Origin: Aquibium oceanicum
GTDB lineage: Bacteria > Pseudomonadota > Alphaproteobacteria > Rhizobiales > Rhizobiaceae
DNA length: 64,000 bases
Reading direction: 5' to 3'
Assembly (NCBI RefSeq): GCF_001889605.1
Contig: NZ_CP018171.1
Location: 2,192,501 to 2,256,500, forward strand
The notes beneath the pieces were generated by a model. That model ran no database searches and had not been told where the DNA came from. It saw only the letters and a list, made by a program, of their open reading frames with translations. Position numbers and translations under genes: made by a program. This document shows positions 7,552 through 15,986 of the stretch, piece by piece (position 1 is the first letter of the stretch; every line of letters begins with the position of its first letter).

Positions 7552-7892
7552 GAAATCACAAGATGATGCGGGTACGATGTTGAACGGCCAGTTCTGCTCT
7601 TCATCGGCCGGGCTGGCCGTCGACCGTAGACGAAAGCCGAACTGGATGCGCGTCGGAGCAGAGCTCGTCCCCATGTAGGTGAGCCGTATCGTTCGCCGAG
7701 AAAGCCGAGGGTGCGCTGTGGCATCGGAAAGCCCCTGTGTAAGTTGCCGGGGCAGTGTGAAACTTGCACAGCAGCTTCACGTGATCGGACTACAGGTGAG
7801 AATAACAGGGGTGCTCCTTGTTTTCGTCGCCTGCGTCGGCCTTTTCACCATCCGGGTGCAATGTGACATTGCCCCCAAACGTGTCCTCGGTT
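7552..7892. other. Gene-poor spacer after the glycosyltransferase
   Basis: No convincing gene. It contains a perfect 8-bp inverted repeat (ACGGCCAG at 7584-7591, CTGGCCGT at 7613-7620) 33 bp after the glycosyltransferase stop. This may be an end-of-operon stem-loop, though no T tract follows. The rest shows no family-like peptide in any frame. Confidence 0.5.
7584..7620. repeat. Inverted repeat downstream of the glycosyltransferase gene
   Basis: ACGGCCAG and its perfect complement CTGGCCGT are separated by 21 bp. The position just after a long operon suggests a transcript-end stem-loop, but the missing T run makes a rho-independent terminator uncertain. Confidence 0.4.
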
Positions 7893-8080
7893 TGAACTGG
7901 GCTCCGTCGAAAGGAGATAGAGATGAAGAAGAGCGGGTCACGGAAGACCAGATCATCGGAGTTCTAAAGGAGCATCAGGCGGGAATCGTGATGGAAGAGT
8001 TGTACCGCAAGCACGGGATCTCGGACGCGACCTTCTGCAACTCGCGTAGCCGCTACGGCGGTATGGGCAACGTCAGATGA
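7893..8080 (+). pseudogene. IS3-family (IS407-group-like) orfA remnant, frameshifted and truncated
   Basis: An IS-like left end (TGAACTGG at 7893) and an AAAGGAG ribosome site lead to ATG at 7923, which starts MKKS as in IS3-family orfA proteins. One base is missing about five codons in. After shifting frame, the expected helix-turn-helix sequence continues: TEDQIIGVLKEHQAG, then LYRKHGISDATFCNSRSRYGGM, ending near 8065. The usual orfA leucine zipper, all of orfB and the right end are absent, so the element is dead. An open frame running through it from 7679 starts upstream of the element and probably is not a real gene. Confidence 0.75.
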
Positions 8081-8477
8081 CTTGGCACGTCCGATTCGCT
8101 TCAGCATTTCGATTATGCCAGGGGCTCAGTTCAGCCGGATGCTGCTCAGACTTTCGTGGAATGCTCCACGTGGTCCTCGACCTCGGGAACTTTTCGTCCC
8201 GGCGAATGGTGAGGCGACGATAGCGGTCCTCTAAGCCGGCGGGTGGGCAGGGATTAGCGCCACCACCACCACTCGGGAAGGGAAATGCCAAATCTGCGAC
8301 AAGTCACGCGCGCTTGCCCGTGCGCTCGTACATGATGACGCCGGTCACCCTTGTCGATATCCTCAGAGTTCCTTCCTCCCAAGCAAGGAGAGCGAGACTA
8401 CGCGATCCGCATTCGACCTGAGGTGGATCGATGTCGCCGAACTTCCCGGATTAGGTGGCATAGCCTAATGGTTCGAA
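8081..8477. other. Non-coding or decayed spacer between IS remnant and tRNA-Pro
   Basis: No gene supported. A stop-to-stop open stretch on the minus strand (8304-8450, 48 codons, no start codon) reads like decayed coding sequence but resembles no family I know. The stretch probably is residual DNA from the same insertion history as the IS fragment. Confidence 0.5.
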
Positions 8478-8554
<77 letters not shown>

Positions 8555-8850
8555 ACACGCGGGAAGCCATATATTCGGAAGGTTTGCGGCGCAAGCGCTA
8601 ATTCTGCGAAAGCGGAGACGCGGGGCGTTCGGTTTCGGTTGCCTGGCACGCAGCCCTTCTGGACTATGGTCGCGAGCCACTTCTCGGCGGGGCGGCTTGC
8701 AGAAAGCGGGGGGACGCGGGAGCCTTGCTTTCGTTTCGGATGCGAAGCTCGACGGTGCCGGAGCGAGTTTCCCCGTCCCGGGTGCGGCAAATGTTGAGCT
8801 ATGCCGTCTCAACGGTCCGGGGACCTCGCCCCAGAGGTTGTCGTCTTTCG

Positions 8851-9654
8851 TCAGAATTTCAGCCCGGCTTCGTTCCAGCGCCCGAAGGCAGTGCAGTTCA
8901 AGCCGTCTTTCACGCGCTTCGGATCGATGAGTTCCGGCGCAAAGACGTAAGCGTACCGGCAAAATGGCCCGTGGACGATGACCTTGTAGGCCTCCTTGTT
9001 GGCGCGGACCAAAATTCTTGTGCCCTCTGGCAGATTTTTCGGCGCCTGCTTCTGAAGGTTTGCATCGATGCGCCCGATCGGAATGAACTTGCCGCCCGCC
9101 AGTTTGGTCAATCTGGCGGCATTCTCCGCCTGGAGGCGCTTCACGCCGGCCTCGGCAACATCGAGGAAGGAGCGGGCGGATTCGAAGGCGGGCGTCGAGG
9201 TCCGGAACTCGTCGTAGAGCACTGTCCTGATGCGCGCGCGATCGCCATATGAGATGTCGACGACCGAAGCGGCCGCCAGCGCCCCGAGACCGGCTGCACC
9301 CAGCGCCAAGCCGATGACGACCCCCGCGACAACGGGCAGAGCGCGGGTGGAGCGGTTCTTTCCATCGGCGACAGGTTCGGCGCGGTTCGACTGGACTGGA
9401 GCTTCTTCCGGGAGCGTTTCGGCCGCAGGCATCCCCATCCGGCTCTCGCGGTGGTCGCGGATGACCGCTTCGACAGCGGCGCGCAGCTCTTCCGCCTGGC
9501 CTGTTTCGGAGAGATGCTTGTTGTTGTCGAGCATCTTCTCGTTGGCCGCCCTCAGCCGGTCGTACCCGGCTTCTATCTGGGCCTCGTCGCCTGGGTCTAC
9601 GCCATCGAGTATCTTCGAGAGGTATTGAACATACTTCGGCTTGTACTGTTCCAT
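8851..9654 (-). CDS. Unknown single-span membrane protein
   Basis: A 267-residue protein of unrecognised family. Residues 1-100 are charged and probably helical (MEQYKPKYVQYLSKILDG...). Residues 106-130 form one Ala/Gly/Val-rich transmembrane helix. Residues 135-267 are a likely periplasmic domain with IRTVLYDEFR, a KFIPIGRIDANL segment and two cysteines (CRYAYVF and GLNCTAFG). Absence of a cleavable signal and a cytoplasmic N-terminal region suggest an N-in, C-out topology. It stands alone, with no co-directional neighbour closer than tRNA-Pro. Codon use looks normal for this genome, so the gene is probably real. Confidence 0.65.
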   Translation of the reverse strand: MEQYKPKYVQYLSKILDGVDPGDEAQIEAGYDRLRAANEKMLDNNKHLSETGQAEELRAAVEAVIRDHRESRMGMPAAETLPEEAPVQSNRAEPVADGKNRSTRALPVVAGVVIGLALGAAGLGALAAASVVDISYGDRARIRTVLYDEFRTSTPAFESARSFLDVAEAGVKRLQAENAARLTKLAGGKFIPIGRIDANLQKQAPKNLPEGTRILVRANKEAYKVIVHGPFCRYAYVFAPELIDPKRVKDGLNCTAFGRWNEAGLKF

Positions 9655-10019
9655 GCGATCCGACGGTACCTTTTTCTGCCGGTGCTTTCAGGCACCATGG
9701 GTGCCGCACCTTCGTTCGCCCCAAAAAGTTGCCGTCGGCCAAAGTGCGACATAAGGCGACGCATGGCCGAACGGCGAATTCTCCTCTTCAATGACGACAC
9801 CGAATATCGGGAATGTGACGCAACGTCGACAGCCAAGGCGCAGGAAATGCAGGTCGTTGGTCGCGAGGCGCAAACTGCGCCAGATCACGAAGGTGCTCCC
9901 GGCCTCTTCCACCGTTCGCACGCGCAAGACATCGGAAACCTTCGCAAATTAGCGAAACTGATCGAGAAAAGGATACGGCCAGGCGGCTGGAGAAGTGGAG
10001 ATGTGTACCCTTGATCCTG
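9655..10019. other. Intergenic stretch upstream of the BLUF gene
   Basis: No supported gene in about 365 bp. Open frames here (for example minus 9688-9927) lack a recognisable family or a good ribosome site. The stretch should contain the promoters of the minus-strand membrane-protein gene and of the plus-strand BLUF gene. Confidence 0.5.
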
Positions 10020-10052
10020 ATGCTGAGATTGCTCTAGGCGAACGATACCACC

Positions 10053-10445
10053 ATGCCGGCGAATGACGAGCTCCTCGAGAACACCCTGTTGGCGTCCCGG
10101 AGGAACAATGCCGGCAAGGGCATCACCGGCATGCTGTTTGCCGGCGAGGGCGTCTTCCTGCAGATCCTCGAGGGAGAGGCAACCGCCGTCCGATCGCTGG
10201 TGAGCCGCATTCGCCGCTATCCGCGCCACCGCAACGTCATGATCCAGAGCGCAACAACGGTTTCACGGCTCCTGTTCGGAAACCACGACATGGAATTTAA
10301 GAGGCTCGATCCGTCCCGCTGTCCCGATCGGGAGATCTTCCGCACGACGCGCGAGGCGCTCGCGGACCGCATCTCCCAGGCGGATGGCGGCATCCTGCGG
10401 GACACCGTCCTGGCATTCAGCGCGGATTTCCTCGCACCGGCATAG
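10053..10445 (+). CDS. BLUF blue-light sensor domain protein, N-terminal strand cut by amber codon
   Basis: A 130-residue frame matches BLUF (FAD-binding blue-light) domains: the flavin-contact Asn in LLASRRNNAGKGITGML, the key Gln in FLQILEGEA, RRYPRHRNV, and a DMEF segment where the family usually has W-S-M-x-F. BLUF proteins normally begin with a strand containing the photoactive tyrosine (L-x-Y-x-S). In frame upstream, ATG at 10020 reads M-L-R-L-L and then TAG at 10035-10037, just where Tyr is expected, followed by A-N-D-T-T-M-P. Translation from ATG 10053 therefore yields a domain without its first strand and tyrosine. It is probably a recent pseudogene or light-blind remnant. A sequencing error at one base is the alternative. 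Confidence 0.75.
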   Translation: MPANDELLENTLLASRRNNAGKGITGMLFAGEGVFLQILEGEATAVRSLVSRIRRYPRHRNVMIQSATTVSRLLFGNHDMEFKRLDPSRCPDREIFRTTREALADRISQADGGILRDTVLAFSADFLAPA

Positions 10446-10452
10446 CATAAGC

Positions 10453-11832
10453 CTATCGTGCCAGTCCCAGCGGAATGGCGAAGTTCCAGCTGCTGCGTCC
10501 GGCGGCGGCGGGGATAGGCGGGAACGGCGCGGCCTTACGCACTGCTGCGAGTGCTGCCTGGTCGAGGGCGGACGAGCCCGAACTCTGCGTGATGCGCGCC
10601 GAACCGAGGCCGCCGCTGGCGGTCACCACGAAAGACACGTGGACGTCGCGCTGGGCGCCGCGGCGGGCGGAGCGGGACACCGCGCGCACTGCGCGCCTGA
10701 GCTTCGAGGCGACTTGTCCGGGATAGTTCGAAACGGCGGCGTTGCCCGCCTGCGAACTGCGGTTGCCGGTGCCGCTCGCCACCGCGCTGCCTCGGTCGCT
10801 GCCATTGGCCTGGCCGCGCGTGGTGCTGCTCTTCTGCCTTCCGCCGTTGCCTGATGCGCGTGGCGCGGGTTTGCGCTCGGTCTGCTGCTGTCGCCGAGGT
10901 TCGGTCTGAGCGCGGTCTGGCCGCACCGCGGCTTGGCGGACGACGGGCGGCTCCGGACGAGCCGTCGGCAGCGGCACGTCTTCGGGAATCGGGAATTCTT
11001 CGATCGCCTCGATCACCTCTTCGGGCTCCACCGGCTCGACGGCTTCCGCCACCGGCGGAACCACGGCGAGAGCAGTCTGGACCTCATCGGCCACTTCGGG
11101 CGCATCGGCCGTCTCGGTTTCGGGCGCTTGCGGCGGCTCGATCTCGGAAGCCACCGGCGACGCGCTCTCCGACACCTCGACGGGCTGTTGCGGCGTTACC
11201 CCGGACGGCTCATGCGGGGTGGTCTCGACGGGCTGCGGCGGGTTCGCCTCGGCCAAGTCCGTCAACGGCTTGGATGTCGTTTCCGGTGTCTCCTCGGTAG
11301 GTACCGCGACCGCAGGGCTGGTCTCCATTGGCTCTTGGGTTTCCTCGGAAGCGACGGCGGGCGCCGGAACGTTCACCTGGGCCGGCAGGGTGGGGTCGCT
11401 CTCCATCGGCGCGGCGACCTCCGGCTCGGCCGCGGTCGCCTTTTCGGGCGCCACCGCTCCGACTGTTTTGCTCGCAGCAGGTTCAGCCGCTGGCACCGGG
11501 GCGACCGCCTCGGCGGGAGCGGCTTCGGCGCGCGCGGCCATCTGTGTCTCCACAGGCTGTACAGCCTGCGGTGTCTCCGCTGCCGTCTCGGCCGTCGTCA
11601 CCGGTTCGGCCACTTCCGAGGGCTCCTCGACGGGGGTGGCTGTGTCGACCGGTTCCACCGGATCGCCGGCCTGGAAGGCATCCTCGAACGAGCCGAGCAC
11701 GGCGATCTCCATCGCCGCCGAGCCTTCGATCTGAACCTCGTCGGGAGCCTCGCGCAGCATGAAGGCGGCGGCGCCCGCGTGCAGCACGCCGGATGCCAGC
11801 AGTGCGGCGGTCCATTTGAGCGAGCGCTTCAT
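10453..11832 (-). CDS. tonB: TonB energy-transducing protein
   Basis: A 459-residue TonB. It couples the ExbBD proton-driven motor to outer-membrane receptors. It has an N-terminal inner-membrane anchor (about 8-27), a very long Pro/Glu/Ala/Thr/Val-rich periplasm-spanning region (about 60-330), a basic Gln/Arg/Ser stretch, and a C-terminal TonB domain (about 375-459) with VHVSFVVTASGGL, SSGSSALDQAAL and APFPPIP. It is longer than typical TonB (240-300 residues), almost all extra length being linker. ATG overlaps the upstream exbD stop (ATGA), so translation is coupled. It is the last gene of a minus-strand haem operon. Confidence 0.88.
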   Translation of the reverse strand: MKRSLKWTAALLASGVLHAGAAAFMLREAPDEVQIEGSAAMEIAVLGSFEDAFQAGDPVEPVDTATPVEEPSEVAEPVTTAETAAETPQAVQPVETQMAARAEAAPAEAVAPVPAAEPAASKTVGAVAPEKATAAEPEVAAPMESDPTLPAQVNVPAPAVASEETQEPMETSPAVAVPTEETPETTSKPLTDLAEANPPQPVETTPHEPSGVTPQQPVEVSESASPVASEIEPPQAPETETADAPEVADEVQTALAVVPPVAEAVEPVEPEEVIEAIEEFPIPEDVPLPTARPEPPVVRQAAVRPDRAQTEPRRQQQTERKPAPRASGNGGRQKSSTTRGQANGSDRGSAVASGTGNRSSQAGNAAVSNYPGQVASKLRRAVRAVSRSARRGAQRDVHVSFVVTASGGLGSARITQSSGSSALDQAALAAVRKAAPFPPIPAAAGRSSWNFAIPLGLAR

Positions 11833-12236
11833 GGCATCGCGCGTTCGGTGACGACGGAAACGCGGGTGGCCCCTGCGTCGCGGAGTTCGGCGACGATCCC
11901 GATCAGTCGTTCAGCTGGAAGATCGCGGTCGGCCGCGATCTTGACCGTGATCGCGTCGCCGCCAAGGAGGAGCCTGTCCTGCCGAATCCTGGCGACGTAT
12001 TCCGCCGGCGTGATCTCGGCGCCTCGCGCACGGATCGAGCCCTGCGCCGTCACGAAGAGCGCGTCCGGCGGCTCTGCCTGGTCGGATTCGGCGGTGCTGA
12101 TCAGCGCCACCTCCTTGTCCAGCGGCGGCGTCAGCGAACCGGCGATCAGGAAGAAGATCAGCATCAGGAAGACCACGTTGATGAGCGTGATCGTGCTTTC
12201 CTGCTTCGTGCGTGCGGTGGGCCTGGGAAGCCGCAT
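11829..12236 (-). CDS. exbD: ExbD/TolR biopolymer transport protein (second copy)
   Basis: A 135-residue ExbD-type protein: a short cytoplasmic N terminus, one transmembrane helix (about 17-37, TLINVVFLMLIFFLIAGSL) and a periplasmic domain ending LRDAGATRVSVVTERAMP. ExbD normally has an essential Asp at the start of the helix (LIDVIF). Here the equivalent reads LINVVF, so the proton-carrying Asp is replaced by Asn, whereas the neighbouring copy keeps LIDVIF. It lies 4 bp after that copy and overlaps tonB. It probably forms a mixed ExbD dimer in the motor. Confidence 0.82.
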   Translation of the reverse strand: MRLPRPTARTKQESTITLINVVFLMLIFFLIAGSLTPPLDKEVALISTAESDQAEPPDALFVTAQGSIRARGAEITPAEYVARIRQDRLLLGGDAITVKIAADRDLPAERLIGIVAELRDAGATRVSVVTERAMP

Positions 12237-12240
12237 CGTT

Positions 12241-12627
12241 CTATCTCGCGACTTGCAGGGTCAGGTTGGTTTCCCGCCGGATGCGTTCGACTGCGCTGAC
12301 GAGCGCCTGCGAGGTCATGTCGCCGCGCACGAGGAGCACAGCCGACACCGCGCCGGCTTGTTCGAGGCGCTTCAGCTCGGCGACCGCGCCTTCCGCACCG
12401 ACCGGCAAGCCGTTAATCGTCCAGACGTCTCGGTTCACGCGAAGCAGGATGCCGGGCGCGACTCCCGGCGCGCGTGCGCCGGCGCGGCCGCCGACGATCT
12501 CGACCTCGGCGAATTTGGTGAACGTCGACGACAGCATGAAAAACAGCAGCAGCAGGAATATCACGTCGATCAGCGACGTGACCGAGATCGGCCGGCGCCG
12601 GGCGCCAGCGCCCGCGTCAATGCGCAT
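12241..12627 (-). CDS. exbD: ExbD/TolR biopolymer transport protein (first copy)
   Basis: A 128-residue ExbD with the canonical SLIDVIFLLLLFFML helix (about 18-37); the Asp is the conserved proton-pathway residue. The periplasmic part ends in the usual mixed fold (VSAVLLVRGDMTSQALVSAV). ATG lies inside the end of exbB (11-bp overlap), and the next gene is a second ExbD 4 bp on. With ExbB and TonB it should power the haemoglobin receptor of the same operon. Confidence 0.88.
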   Translation of the reverse strand: MRIDAGAGARRRPISVTSLIDVIFLLLLFFMLSSTFTKFAEVEIVGGRAGARAPGVAPGILLRVNRDVWTINGLPVGAEGAVAELKRLEQAGAVSAVLLVRGDMTSQALVSAVERIRRETNLTLQVAR

Positions 12628-13324
12628 GGCTCGCCCCGGTCAACGCCGCGACCGACGGTTCGGCGCGGGGAGAGGCGGCGCGGATCTCGCCCAGCGCGTG
12701 CTGCGAGAAGAAGCTGGTGGTGAGTGTTTCGATCGCCACGCGCTCGTTCTCCATCCGCGTTTCGAACCAGGTCAGCACCAGCGAGACGGGCATGGCGACG
12801 GCGAGACCGGCGGCGGTGGTGAGCAGCGCGACCCAGATGCCGCCGGCCAGGATGGAGGGGTCCACTGCGTTGCCGGCGCCTTGCAACTGCTGGAAGGCCT
12901 CGATCATGCCGAGCACGGTTCCGAACAGGCCGAGCAGCGGCGAAATCTGCGCGATGGCGTCGAGCGCGCGGAAACCGCGCTGCAGGTCGTGCAGCCGGCC
13001 GACCGCGATGCGCTCGACCTCGTCCTCGACCACGCCTTTGGGCACGCTGCGCGTCATGGAAAGCCGCATCGCCGCCGCGAGCGCTGATCCGACCGCCGAC
13101 GGGTCGGCGTCGGCGACCTGGCGCGCATCGCCATAGTTGCCGTGCACCCACAGATGCAGGGCACGCTGCGCGGCGCCGTGGAAGCCGACGCGCTCGCGCC
13201 AGAACTGCACCAGTTTCAACAGGATCAGCGCCACCGCGAAGACGGAGAGTACCAGAAGGATGGCGACCACCGGGCCGCCAAGCTCCAGGAAGGAGCGCAT
13301 GTTCTGAAAGACGCTGTCGGTCAT
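12617..13324 (-). CDS. exbB: ExbB/TolQ/MotA proton channel protein
   Basis: A 235-residue ExbB-type inner-membrane protein. A first helix (about 14-34, GGPVVAILLVLSVFAVALIL) is followed by a cytoplasmic loop and two helices at about 120-150 and 160-185 (ISPLLGLFGTVLGMIEAFQQL; LTTAAGLAVAMPVSLVL), the standard MotA/TolQ/ExbB pattern. ATG at 13324 begins MTDSVFQN; an upstream in-frame start would add an unlikely basic extension. It forms the pentameric proton channel around ExbD. It is followed by two exbD genes and tonB with overlapping reading frames. Confidence 0.9.
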   Translation of the reverse strand: MTDSVFQNMRSFLELGGPVVAILLVLSVFAVALILLKLVQFWRERVGFHGAAQRALHLWVHGNYGDARQVADADPSAVGSALAAAMRLSMTRSVPKGVVEDEVERIAVGRLHDLQRGFRALDAIAQISPLLGLFGTVLGMIEAFQQLQGAGNAVDPSILAGGIWVALLTTAAGLAVAMPVSLVLTWFETRMENERVAIETLTTSFFSQHALGEIRAASPRAEPSVAALTGASHAH

Positions 13325-13368
13325 GGGTCGGGTCCTGTCGCTGGGGTATGCTCGCCGATGCGGCGAGA

Positions 13369-13818
13369 TCAGCTGCCGAACGTCACGTCCGCAGCCTTGG
13401 TGGCGGCGTCGAGATGGCGGATGCATGCGCCGGCCTCCACGCCGTCACCGTCGCAGGCGACCGCGTCGTTGACGAGCACGCGCCCCACCGCCGCGCAGTC
13501 GGTGTCGGCCAGGTCGAACTGGCGCACCTTGGTCTTGCCGTCCGGCAGGTCCTTGAAGTCGAGCACGGTCAGCCGCTGGACCAGCCCCGCCTTGTCGAAG
13601 AGCACGATCTCGAAGGCGGCTTTCTCCAGCGCGGCGCCGAGCTCGTTGCGGACCAGGAAGGTAAGCCTGCAGCCGCCCGCAGACGGCTCCAACCCGTTGA
13701 GTTCCAGGGTCAGCGAAGGCGCCGTCGACGCCTCCTGCGCGAGCGCCGTGGCGCCCGCCAGCGGCGACATCGCGATCGATGCCGCCAGCAACCGTGCCGT
13801 TGCCGTCGCTTTCGACAT
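13369..13818 (-). CDS. Small exported protein linked to the haemoglobin receptor
   Basis: A 149-residue protein of unrecognised family. ATG at 13818 overlaps the receptor stop by one base (TGATG), so translation is coupled. The N terminus is a signal peptide (MSKATATARLLAASIAMS..., cleavage near ALAQE). The mature part is beta-rich (LTFLVRNELG, FEIVLFDKAGLVQRLTVL, KTKVRQFDL) and has four cysteines (GGCRLTF, DTDCAAV, VACDGDG, GACIRH), suggesting two disulfides in the periplasm. Its place between receptor and exbB suggests a role in haem or haemoglobin capture, but that is inference from context. Confidence 0.7.
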   Translation of the reverse strand: MSKATATARLLAASIAMSPLAGATALAQEASTAPSLTLELNGLEPSAGGCRLTFLVRNELGAALEKAAFEIVLFDKAGLVQRLTVLDFKDLPDGKTKVRQFDLADTDCAAVGRVLVNDAVACDGDGVEAGACIRHLDAATKAADVTFGS

Positions 13819-15986
13819 CACTGCCATCCTATCTGCTTGCTGAGTGAGATCTTGAACGTCCGGCCCATCGCACGGTCGTTGTTGAGGAATTCCTTGAAGT
13901 CCTCGTCGAACAGATTGTCGACGCCAGCCTGCACCTCCCAGCCGGAGAACTGGCCTTCCTGCGGAGTCCACGAGAGGAACACGTCGTGGACGTCGAAGGC
14001 CTTCGCGTAGCGCGTGGAGGTTCCGATGGCCGTGTCGGAGCGGAGTGCCGGATCCTGCGGGTTTGCAACGATGCGCGAACGCCAGCCGAACTGCAGGTCG
14101 TGCTGGGGAACCTTGCCACCGACGGTGAAGGCAAGCTCATGCGGGGCGATCGAGGTCAGGTACTTGTCGTAGTCCGCACCGGGCGTCTTGTTCTTCCCGA
14201 CCACGTAGGAGTAGGCGACGTTGGCGAAGAAATAGTCCGCGTCGTAGGCCGACTCCACTTCGAAGCCGTATATCTGCGCCGACGCTATGTTGACGAAACC
14301 TGCCCGGTCATTGAATCCCGCGGTGAAAGGCGAGTCGAGCGCGATCAGGTCCGTGACGTCATTGTAGAAGCCGGTGACCTTGATCTGGCCGGCATCACCC
14401 GGCTGAACCATGTCGTACCCCGAGACCGCGAAACCGCCTTCGAAATTGTCGGATCGTTCCTTGCGAAGGTCGAGGCTAGGAAGGAAGGTTGCAGAGGAGC
14501 TTGCCGTCGAGAAGACTTCATCGATGGTGGGGAATCGCTCGGTATGAGCGATGGAGCCGAAGACGGCGAAAGTGTCGTTGAACTTGTAGTGCGCCGCGAT
14601 CTTAGGCGAAATCGCCGTGTCGTCGCTGTCGCTCATGGGGTTCCCGCGGTCCGTGACGCCGGTGCCCGGAGTGAGGCGATGCCAGTCGAGCCGAATGCCG
14701 GGGATGAGGGTCAGCCTGTCGTCCCAGATGAACTCGTTTTGGACGAAGACGCCCGTCTTGAGATCGGTTCCTTCGGGGTGGAAGGTCACCGGGAGCAACG
14801 TCCCGTCGTTCAGGAAGGCATCGGCCACTCGGCGCTGGTAGGTGCTCTGGGAACCATATGTAAGATAGTTCTGCCAGTTGGCGCCGGTCCACTCCATCGT
14901 GTTCTGCGCATTCAGCTGCCACGTCTGGTAGGCGTAGTCCGAATCGCACACGATCGAAAATGACCCAGGGCTGCAGGAAGAGCGCAGATCGGCATCGCGC
15001 TGCGAATTGCTGGTATCCGAATAGGAGGCGGATACCTTCACATCCAGCATGTCATTGTCGGTGAAGGGATTCTCGTAGGAGAGTATGGCGGTCTGGTCGA
15101 TCACGTGCCGGTCGATCAGACCGAAGAAGGTCGCGGTGCTGGTTTGCGACAACTGCTGGTCGGCGAGGTCTGAATCCCAGCGCTGGTAGGAGGCGCGCAG
15201 CTTGCCTTCGTCTCCGACGTTGAAGGTGCCCTTGACCAGTCCCGACCATGCCTCGAAGTTCGATCCGACGATCTCATTGCCGGCTCCATCCTCATAGGGA
15301 TCGGCGAACCGGTAGTTGCCGGTGACGAGCAACTCGGCATCTCCGCCGAACCGCTGGGCGAGCACCGGTGAGAAGAGCCATCCGTTCCCGTTGCTGCTCC
15401 AGCTCGACTTCATCCGGAAAGCACCGTTGTCCCCGTCCCTGATGTAGTCGGAGGCGTCCTTGGTTTCGAAGTTGATCACGCCGCCGAGGGCACCGGATCC
15501 ATAAAGCGTGGAGGATGCGGGACCACGCAGCACCTCGACACGCTTGTAGAGTTCCGGATCGGAGAAGAACGAACCGAGCCGATACTGCTCGTAGAATTTC
15601 TGGACGCCATCGACATTGACGATGATGCGCCCGCCGTCGCCGCTGTTTTCCGGCGCGCCGATGCCCCGGATGTTGAAGCTTTGGCCCAGAACGCGATCCG
15701 AACCCGTCACGTTCACGCCCGGCACCGCTCGGATCACTTCACCGATCGTCTGCGGCTGCAGCCGATCGATCTCTTCCTGCTCGATCACGGTGACGGATTG
15801 CGGCGTGTCGATCGCGACCTTTTCCACGCCGGCGCCGAAGACCAGGCGCTGCAGCATGGTCACGCGGCCCTGCTTGTCTTCCGCGTTCGTGCGCGTTTCC
15901 TCCTGCGCGCCGGCCATCTGTACGACCACCGCGCTCAGCGCGGCTCCACCCAGCAATACCGCGACGTTCCGAGCCACCAACCCCAT
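13818..15986 (-). CDS. TonB-dependent haemoglobin/haem receptor
   Basis: A 722-residue outer-membrane receptor of the haemoglobin/transferrin/lactoferrin class (HmuR/ShmR/BhuR type). It has a signal peptide ending near MAGAQE, a TonB box region and plug (VTVIEQEEIDRLQPQTIGEV, SFNIRGIG, VEVLRGPASSTLYGSGALGG), then a 22-strand barrel ending in FKISLSKQIGWQ. It imports haem using TonB-ExbB-ExbD encoded just downstream. A minus-strand promoter is likely near 16090-16118, with a perfect TTGACA overlapping an iron-type operator, so repression by iron is expected. Confidence 0.92.
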   Translation of the reverse strand: MGLVARNVAVLLGGAALSAVVVQMAGAQEETRTNAEDKQGRVTMLQRLVFGAGVEKVAIDTPQSVTVIEQEEIDRLQPQTIGEVIRAVPGVNVTGSDRVLGQSFNIRGIGAPENSGDGGRIIVNVDGVQKFYEQYRLGSFFSDPELYKRVEVLRGPASSTLYGSGALGGVINFETKDASDYIRDGDNGAFRMKSSWSSNGNGWLFSPVLAQRFGGDAELLVTGNYRFADPYEDGAGNEIVGSNFEAWSGLVKGTFNVGDEGKLRASYQRWDSDLADQQLSQTSTATFFGLIDRHVIDQTAILSYENPFTDNDMLDVKVSASYSDTSNSQRDADLRSSCSPGSFSIVCDSDYAYQTWQLNAQNTMEWTGANWQNYLTYGSQSTYQRRVADAFLNDGTLLPVTFHPEGTDLKTGVFVQNEFIWDDRLTLIPGIRLDWHRLTPGTGVTDRGNPMSDSDDTAISPKIAAHYKFNDTFAVFGSIAHTERFPTIDEVFSTASSSATFLPSLDLRKERSDNFEGGFAVSGYDMVQPGDAGQIKVTGFYNDVTDLIALDSPFTAGFNDRAGFVNIASAQIYGFEVESAYDADYFFANVAYSYVVGKNKTPGADYDKYLTSIAPHELAFTVGGKVPQHDLQFGWRSRIVANPQDPALRSDTAIGTSTRYAKAFDVHDVFLSWTPQEGQFSGWEVQAGVDNLFDEDFKEFLNNDRAMGRTFKISLSKQIGWQ

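Follow-up and report, generated by a model that had tools for sequence, protein, structure and literature searches.

BLUF photoreceptors carry a Tyr on strand 1 and a Gln on strand 3, according to an excerpt of PMC4844311. In OaPAC, the pocket residues are Y6, N30, Q48, W90 and M92; the Tyr is called strictly conserved, and its replacement by Phe at Y6 gave a photoinactive protein in every case, as stated in an excerpt of PMC9486806, from which the role assigned here to the Tyr (Y6) is also taken. The OaPAC numbers Y6, N30 and Q48 also apply to a locus in Aquibium oceanicum, lying in the 64,000-nucleotide window (i.e., the whole stretch of DNA that was analysed). Its features are listed below, where "read-through" refers to the whole frame with the internal TAG read as a residue.

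10020 to 10034, plus strand: the first five codons from the start ATG (M-L-R-L-L), the beginning of BLUF strand 1; from the sequence, the alignment to relatives and strand 2-10 in the read-through model.
10035 to 10037, plus strand: in-frame TAG in place of the codon for the photoactive Tyr (Y6, OaPAC numbering); from the sequence and the alignment.
10053 to 10445, plus strand: rest of the open frame, from an internal ATG to the TAG stop, comprising the remainder of the BLUF domain and the C-terminal helices, with N30, Q48 and M91 kept and Trp89 replaced by His.
10001 to 10066, plus strand: short out-of-frame ORF (21 codons and a stop) overlapping the internal ATG; by eye.

On the plus strand, the ATG at 10020-10022 is followed by CTG AGA TTG CTC and then by the in-frame TAG (10035-10037), past which the frame is open up to a second TAG at 10443-10445. 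Where a functional BLUF photoreceptor is expected to have its strand-1 Tyr, the codon is thus TAG. When the best 80 of 123 related loci were aligned, this column held Tyr in 78 and Phe in 2, and the spacing from the TAG to the SRRNN motif was gap-free against eight rhizobial relatives. The first-pass annotation had placed the TAG right at the flavin-contacting Tyr, and both the sequence and the column alignment bear this out. In nine intact relatives there are 26-38 single-base routes to a stop, two of which (5-8%) fall at this Tyr codon; the coincidence of the stop with the Tyr codon is a modest one. No report of a nonsense codon at the BLUF Tyr was found in the open-licence literature, among the matches listed, by title or the start of the abstract.

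The open frame at 10020-10445 is not a chance frame. From the ATG at 10053, it matched the Pfam BLUF family (PF04940) with an E value of 2.5e-18 and 66.4 bits, above the curated cut-off of 25 that defines membership, while the read-through frame matched with an E value of 1.9e-20 and 73.2 bits, over model positions 1-91 of 92. This match and the alignments support the earlier view that the locus is a BLUF gene whose photoactive Tyr codon is replaced by a nonsense codon. A search of the genome with the read-through protein gave a match at this locus containing one TAG; the 5.32 Mb genome had no other BLUF match. The predicted structure of the read-through protein, a chain not produced by the gene in its present state, had a BLUF fold (pLDDT 80, pTM 0.76). 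Foldseek returned 89 rows for this model at an E value of 0.001 or better; the 50 listed, including 2hfo, 1x0p, 6w72 and 8qfi, are BLUF proteins, judging by their titles. The short out-of-frame ORF, which is preceded by a Shine-Dalgarno-like GGAG at 9989-9992, is probably due to chance. No sigma-70-like promoter appeared in a crude scan of 9600-10600, where 0.2 would be expected by chance.

The nearest relatives found were short, one-domain BLUF proteins from Rhizobiaceae (in the GTDB sense), with 35-47% identity and all with the Tyr. They come from Hoeflea alexandrii (two records), H. halophila, H. marina, a Hoeflea MAG, Chelativorans sp. ZYF759, Pararhizobium haloflavum, Rhizobium albus, a Mesorhizobium MAG and an alphaproteobacterial MAG (L133-L142); three further loci, L043, L044 and L045, from genomes in the family of the window, were protein-identical to those of H. 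halophila, Chelativorans and the Mesorhizobium MAG, respectively, which would put the genome studied here in the Rhizobiaceae (GTDB sense) as well. Like the gene studied here, L133-L142 are about 140 residues long and collinear over the full length, with SRRNN (SRANN in L139), F-Q-LEG, RHRN and the C-terminal region. In the A. oceanicum gene, however, a stop, Asn and His take the place of the Tyr6, Ser8 and Trp89 seen in those that were aligned. Of the 394 genomes covered by the family search, 14 (its own counted) matched at 1e-9 or better; these 394 were a sample of a larger group, the remainder of which may include closer relatives. A peptide-pattern scan of species-representative genomes yielded no relatives, an alignment-based scan yielded none above 47% identity among the best 80 of 123 loci, and no closer relative appeared order-wide (397 genomes, E limit 1e-9) or class-wide (385 genomes, E limit 1e-15). 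Within the genus, four further genomes yielded no orthologue; of these, G002 is 69% complete and G003 had a distant BLUF domain with 29% identity. In a tree with several weakly supported deep nodes, the terminal branch of the A. oceanicum gene (0.98) was the longest of the rhizobial group, the others being at most 0.68 and the two outgroups 1.7 and 2.9.

Three other BLUF-like loci were noted among the related sequences. One in Tritonibacter mobilis (L193, 3001-3435) has an open 144-residue ORF in which Tyr6 is replaced by Phe, Gln48 by His and Met91 by Phe; when 385 genomes were searched class-wide for its relatives, a single one reached 1e-15 or better, with 35% identity and with Tyr and Gln in place. 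A BLUF-like frame in Epibacterium sp. (L212) has the same Gln48 to His and Met91 to Phe replacements. Judged from these residues, L193 and L212 may be natural light-blind BLUF proteins. The third, in a Flavobacteriaceae MAG (L201, 3001-3258), carries Phe at position 6, Glu at 48, Phe at 89 and Thr at 91 in place of Tyr, Gln, Trp and Met, respectively.

The stop is not the only change at conserved positions. Nine distinct relatives share 43 invariant positions, and the A. oceanicum gene departs from them at 14 (Q3, Y6, V7, S8, G9, A10, I22, L40, D67, A81, R84, W89, G92 and L127). When each of the nine was left out in turn (with exact duplicates removed and, for the 87% pair L133/L136, the partner omitted as well), only 0-3 of 43-46 invariant sites were broken. 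In an earlier set of six relatives, 15-16 sites were broken here versus 1-5 in the relatives, of 48-52. Of 18 columns in which at least 90% of the 80 loci share one residue, this sequence was off in four; 77 of the 80 loci were off in 0-2, two in three and one in five. The conserved Asn (N30) and the strand 3 Gln (Q48) expected of a functional BLUF photoreceptor are both present, and M91 is kept (Met in 77 of the 80 loci). The semi-conserved Trp89 near the flavin is His here; this column holds Trp in 72 of the 80 loci, and since the other eight also lack it, its loss alone does not prove lost function. Position 8, Ser in the relatives aligned, is Asn. The description of the rest of the domain as intact and open therefore stood as regards the open frame, but not as regards intactness, with S8, D67, W89 and G92 among the positions altered. 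The broken invariant sites are also unevenly placed, with 6 of 7 broken ahead of the ATG at 10053 and 8 of 36 past it (Fisher 0.003, or 0.007 without the Tyr, with the split picked post hoc).

Around the locus, the following features were found:

7679-8080, plus strand: ORF with a match to a transposase helix-turn-helix (Pfam HTH_Tnp_1, 23.9 bits, just below its 24.1 cut-off) and probably part of an IS element.
8478-8554: tRNA-Pro.
8851-9654, minus strand: hypothetical gene (267-residue protein, no Pfam match).
10453-11832, minus strand: tonB.
11829-12236, minus strand: ExbD-like ORF; by eye.
12241-12627, minus strand: exbD.
12617-13426, minus strand: exbB.
13818-15986, minus strand: TonB-dependent receptor.

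The BLUF gene and tonB are convergent and lie 7 bases apart. Other members of the genus retain the tonB-exb stretch. The stretch 8000-10450 matched four other members of the genus at the tRNA only (40 of 191-456 candidates scored per genome), which fits a local gain or loss, and the DNA of the hypothetical gene at 8851-9654 had no match in four same-genus genomes. At the tonB end, 8 kb in G001, G003 and G004 contained no BLUF match better than E 0.19. This comparison covers those three genomes, as the contig of G002, which matches at 84% DNA identity starting within tonB, breaks off inside that gene. The 267-residue protein, TonB and a glycosyltransferase of the window had no match at 1e-3 in 88 relative loci, whose flanks cover at most about 1.5 or 3 kb on each side. 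Fur is reported among the partners of BlsA in an excerpt of PMC9948694; any link of the present locus to iron or haem would rest on position only, and we draw no conclusion from it.

We consider it likely that the locus is a diverged BLUF pseudogene that was stopped comparatively recently. It would descend from a rhizobial gene for a short blue-light receptor with BLUF as its single domain. In BLUF photochemistry, the Tyr gives an electron and a proton to the flavin. Translation from the ATG at 10020 would end after five residues, just ahead of this Tyr, and with a stop at that point no light-sensing protein would be made. To this extent we infer loss of function, relaxed constraint and an order of events.

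The age of the stop was considered against a neutral simulation (equilibrium GC 0.58, five relatives) run until the same 14/43 share of residues had changed. This needed a median of 81 substitutions and produced a mean of 1.4 stops, with a probability of 0.57 for at most one, and a median GC3 change of -0.06; the probability of no frameshift was 0.07 with an assumed indel ratio of 0.05 and 0.005 with one of 0.1. A version with a strong AT bias, which gave a steeper fall in GC3, was set aside for this one. Observed at the locus were one internal stop, no indel and a GC3 of 0.82 (0.78-0.86 in the five relatives). The single internal stop is compatible with neutrality; the absence of indels counts against it, weakly at the lower indel ratio. 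Compared with the simulation, the lack of any indel and the high GC3 make unconstrained decay over the whole divergence unlikely, and because no frameshift has accumulated the stop looks comparatively recent. Probably, the bulk of the divergence arose while the frame was still kept, the stop being recent by comparison. The sensor had initially been proposed to be just inactivated, which can hold for the stop, given the high GC3 and the absence of a frameshift, but not for the protein, which has diverged as well. Points against a pseudogene are the open frame without an indel, the GC3 and the retention of N30, Q48 and M91, together with the excess of broken sites before the ATG at 10053, which is unlike uniform decay.

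The main rival reading is an internal start at 10053, yielding a shortened, light-blind BLUF-like protein that still has a role, e.g., as a protein-binding remnant. The clustering of broken invariant sites before this ATG fits such a start, as do the intact frame and GC3 past it. However, the product would have neither strand 1 nor the Tyr, and its AlphaFold model lacked strand 70-80 too, with a pTM of 0.65 versus 0.76 (a prediction, and no measure of stability). By eye, there is no good ribosome-binding site before 10053, and 9 of the 11 codons preceding it have G or C at the third position, a GC3 not lower than after it. The lower GC of 10020-10052 had been considered as non-coding drift, an idea dropped in view of those third positions. 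On balance we regard a functional short protein as unlikely. The first-pass annotation had also proposed a light-blind form from the internal ATG: the site excess agrees with this, but the predicted short form loses two strands. In a more specific version, the stop itself made a light-blind BLUF core without strand 1, selected for a light-independent role while the upstream strand drifted; this, too, is improbable. Were the short form produced and under selection, it would show that a portion of the BLUF domain is able to work without flavin photochemistry.

A sequencing or assembly error, with the codon really no stop and the gene an intact, divergent BLUF receptor, is quite improbable. Although a single wrong base would suffice for the stop and the frame is otherwise open, 13 further invariant positions, including W89 and S8, are changed too, and the assembly (5.32 Mb in 2 contigs) is rated 100% complete. 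Reading of the TAG by a suppressor tRNA or through a context effect to give a full-length receptor, which had also been suggested, is very unlikely: the frame is open on either side of the TAG, but no tRNA with a CUA anticodon was among the 43 called by ARAGORN (an incomplete list, from which Ile-GAT, Ala-TGC and Leu-TAA were absent), RF1 is present (505 bits), the same ORF terminates in TAG, and suppression would leave the other changed sites unexplained. The genome contained 44 tRNA matches; the one uncalled by ARAGORN (L131, G000:C1:4084936-4085002, 32 bits) is possibly a tRNA remnant.

A stopped BLUF pseudogene thus remains the preferred reading, and the locus is most likely no new kind of sensor system. 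As a pseudogene, it mainly calls for an annotation correction, because a pipeline could call the frame from 10053 a BLUF protein; it would also be a clear case of a rhizobial bacterium losing a blue-light receptor, its nonsense codon falling on the active residue. The loss of a short BLUF gene within a related group has a parallel in blsA of several strains of Acinetobacter baumannii (PMC9948694, in excerpt). There, the loss is described as presence or absence, the main text as available using neither "stop codon" nor "truncated", and "pseudogene" only in the title of a reference (PMC9948694). The read-through model has its fold in common with the solved structures of PixD (Slr1694 and Tll0078), BlsA and the BLUF domain of OaPAC. 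Whereas these are working photoreceptors, in the A. oceanicum gene strand 1 is cut by the stop.
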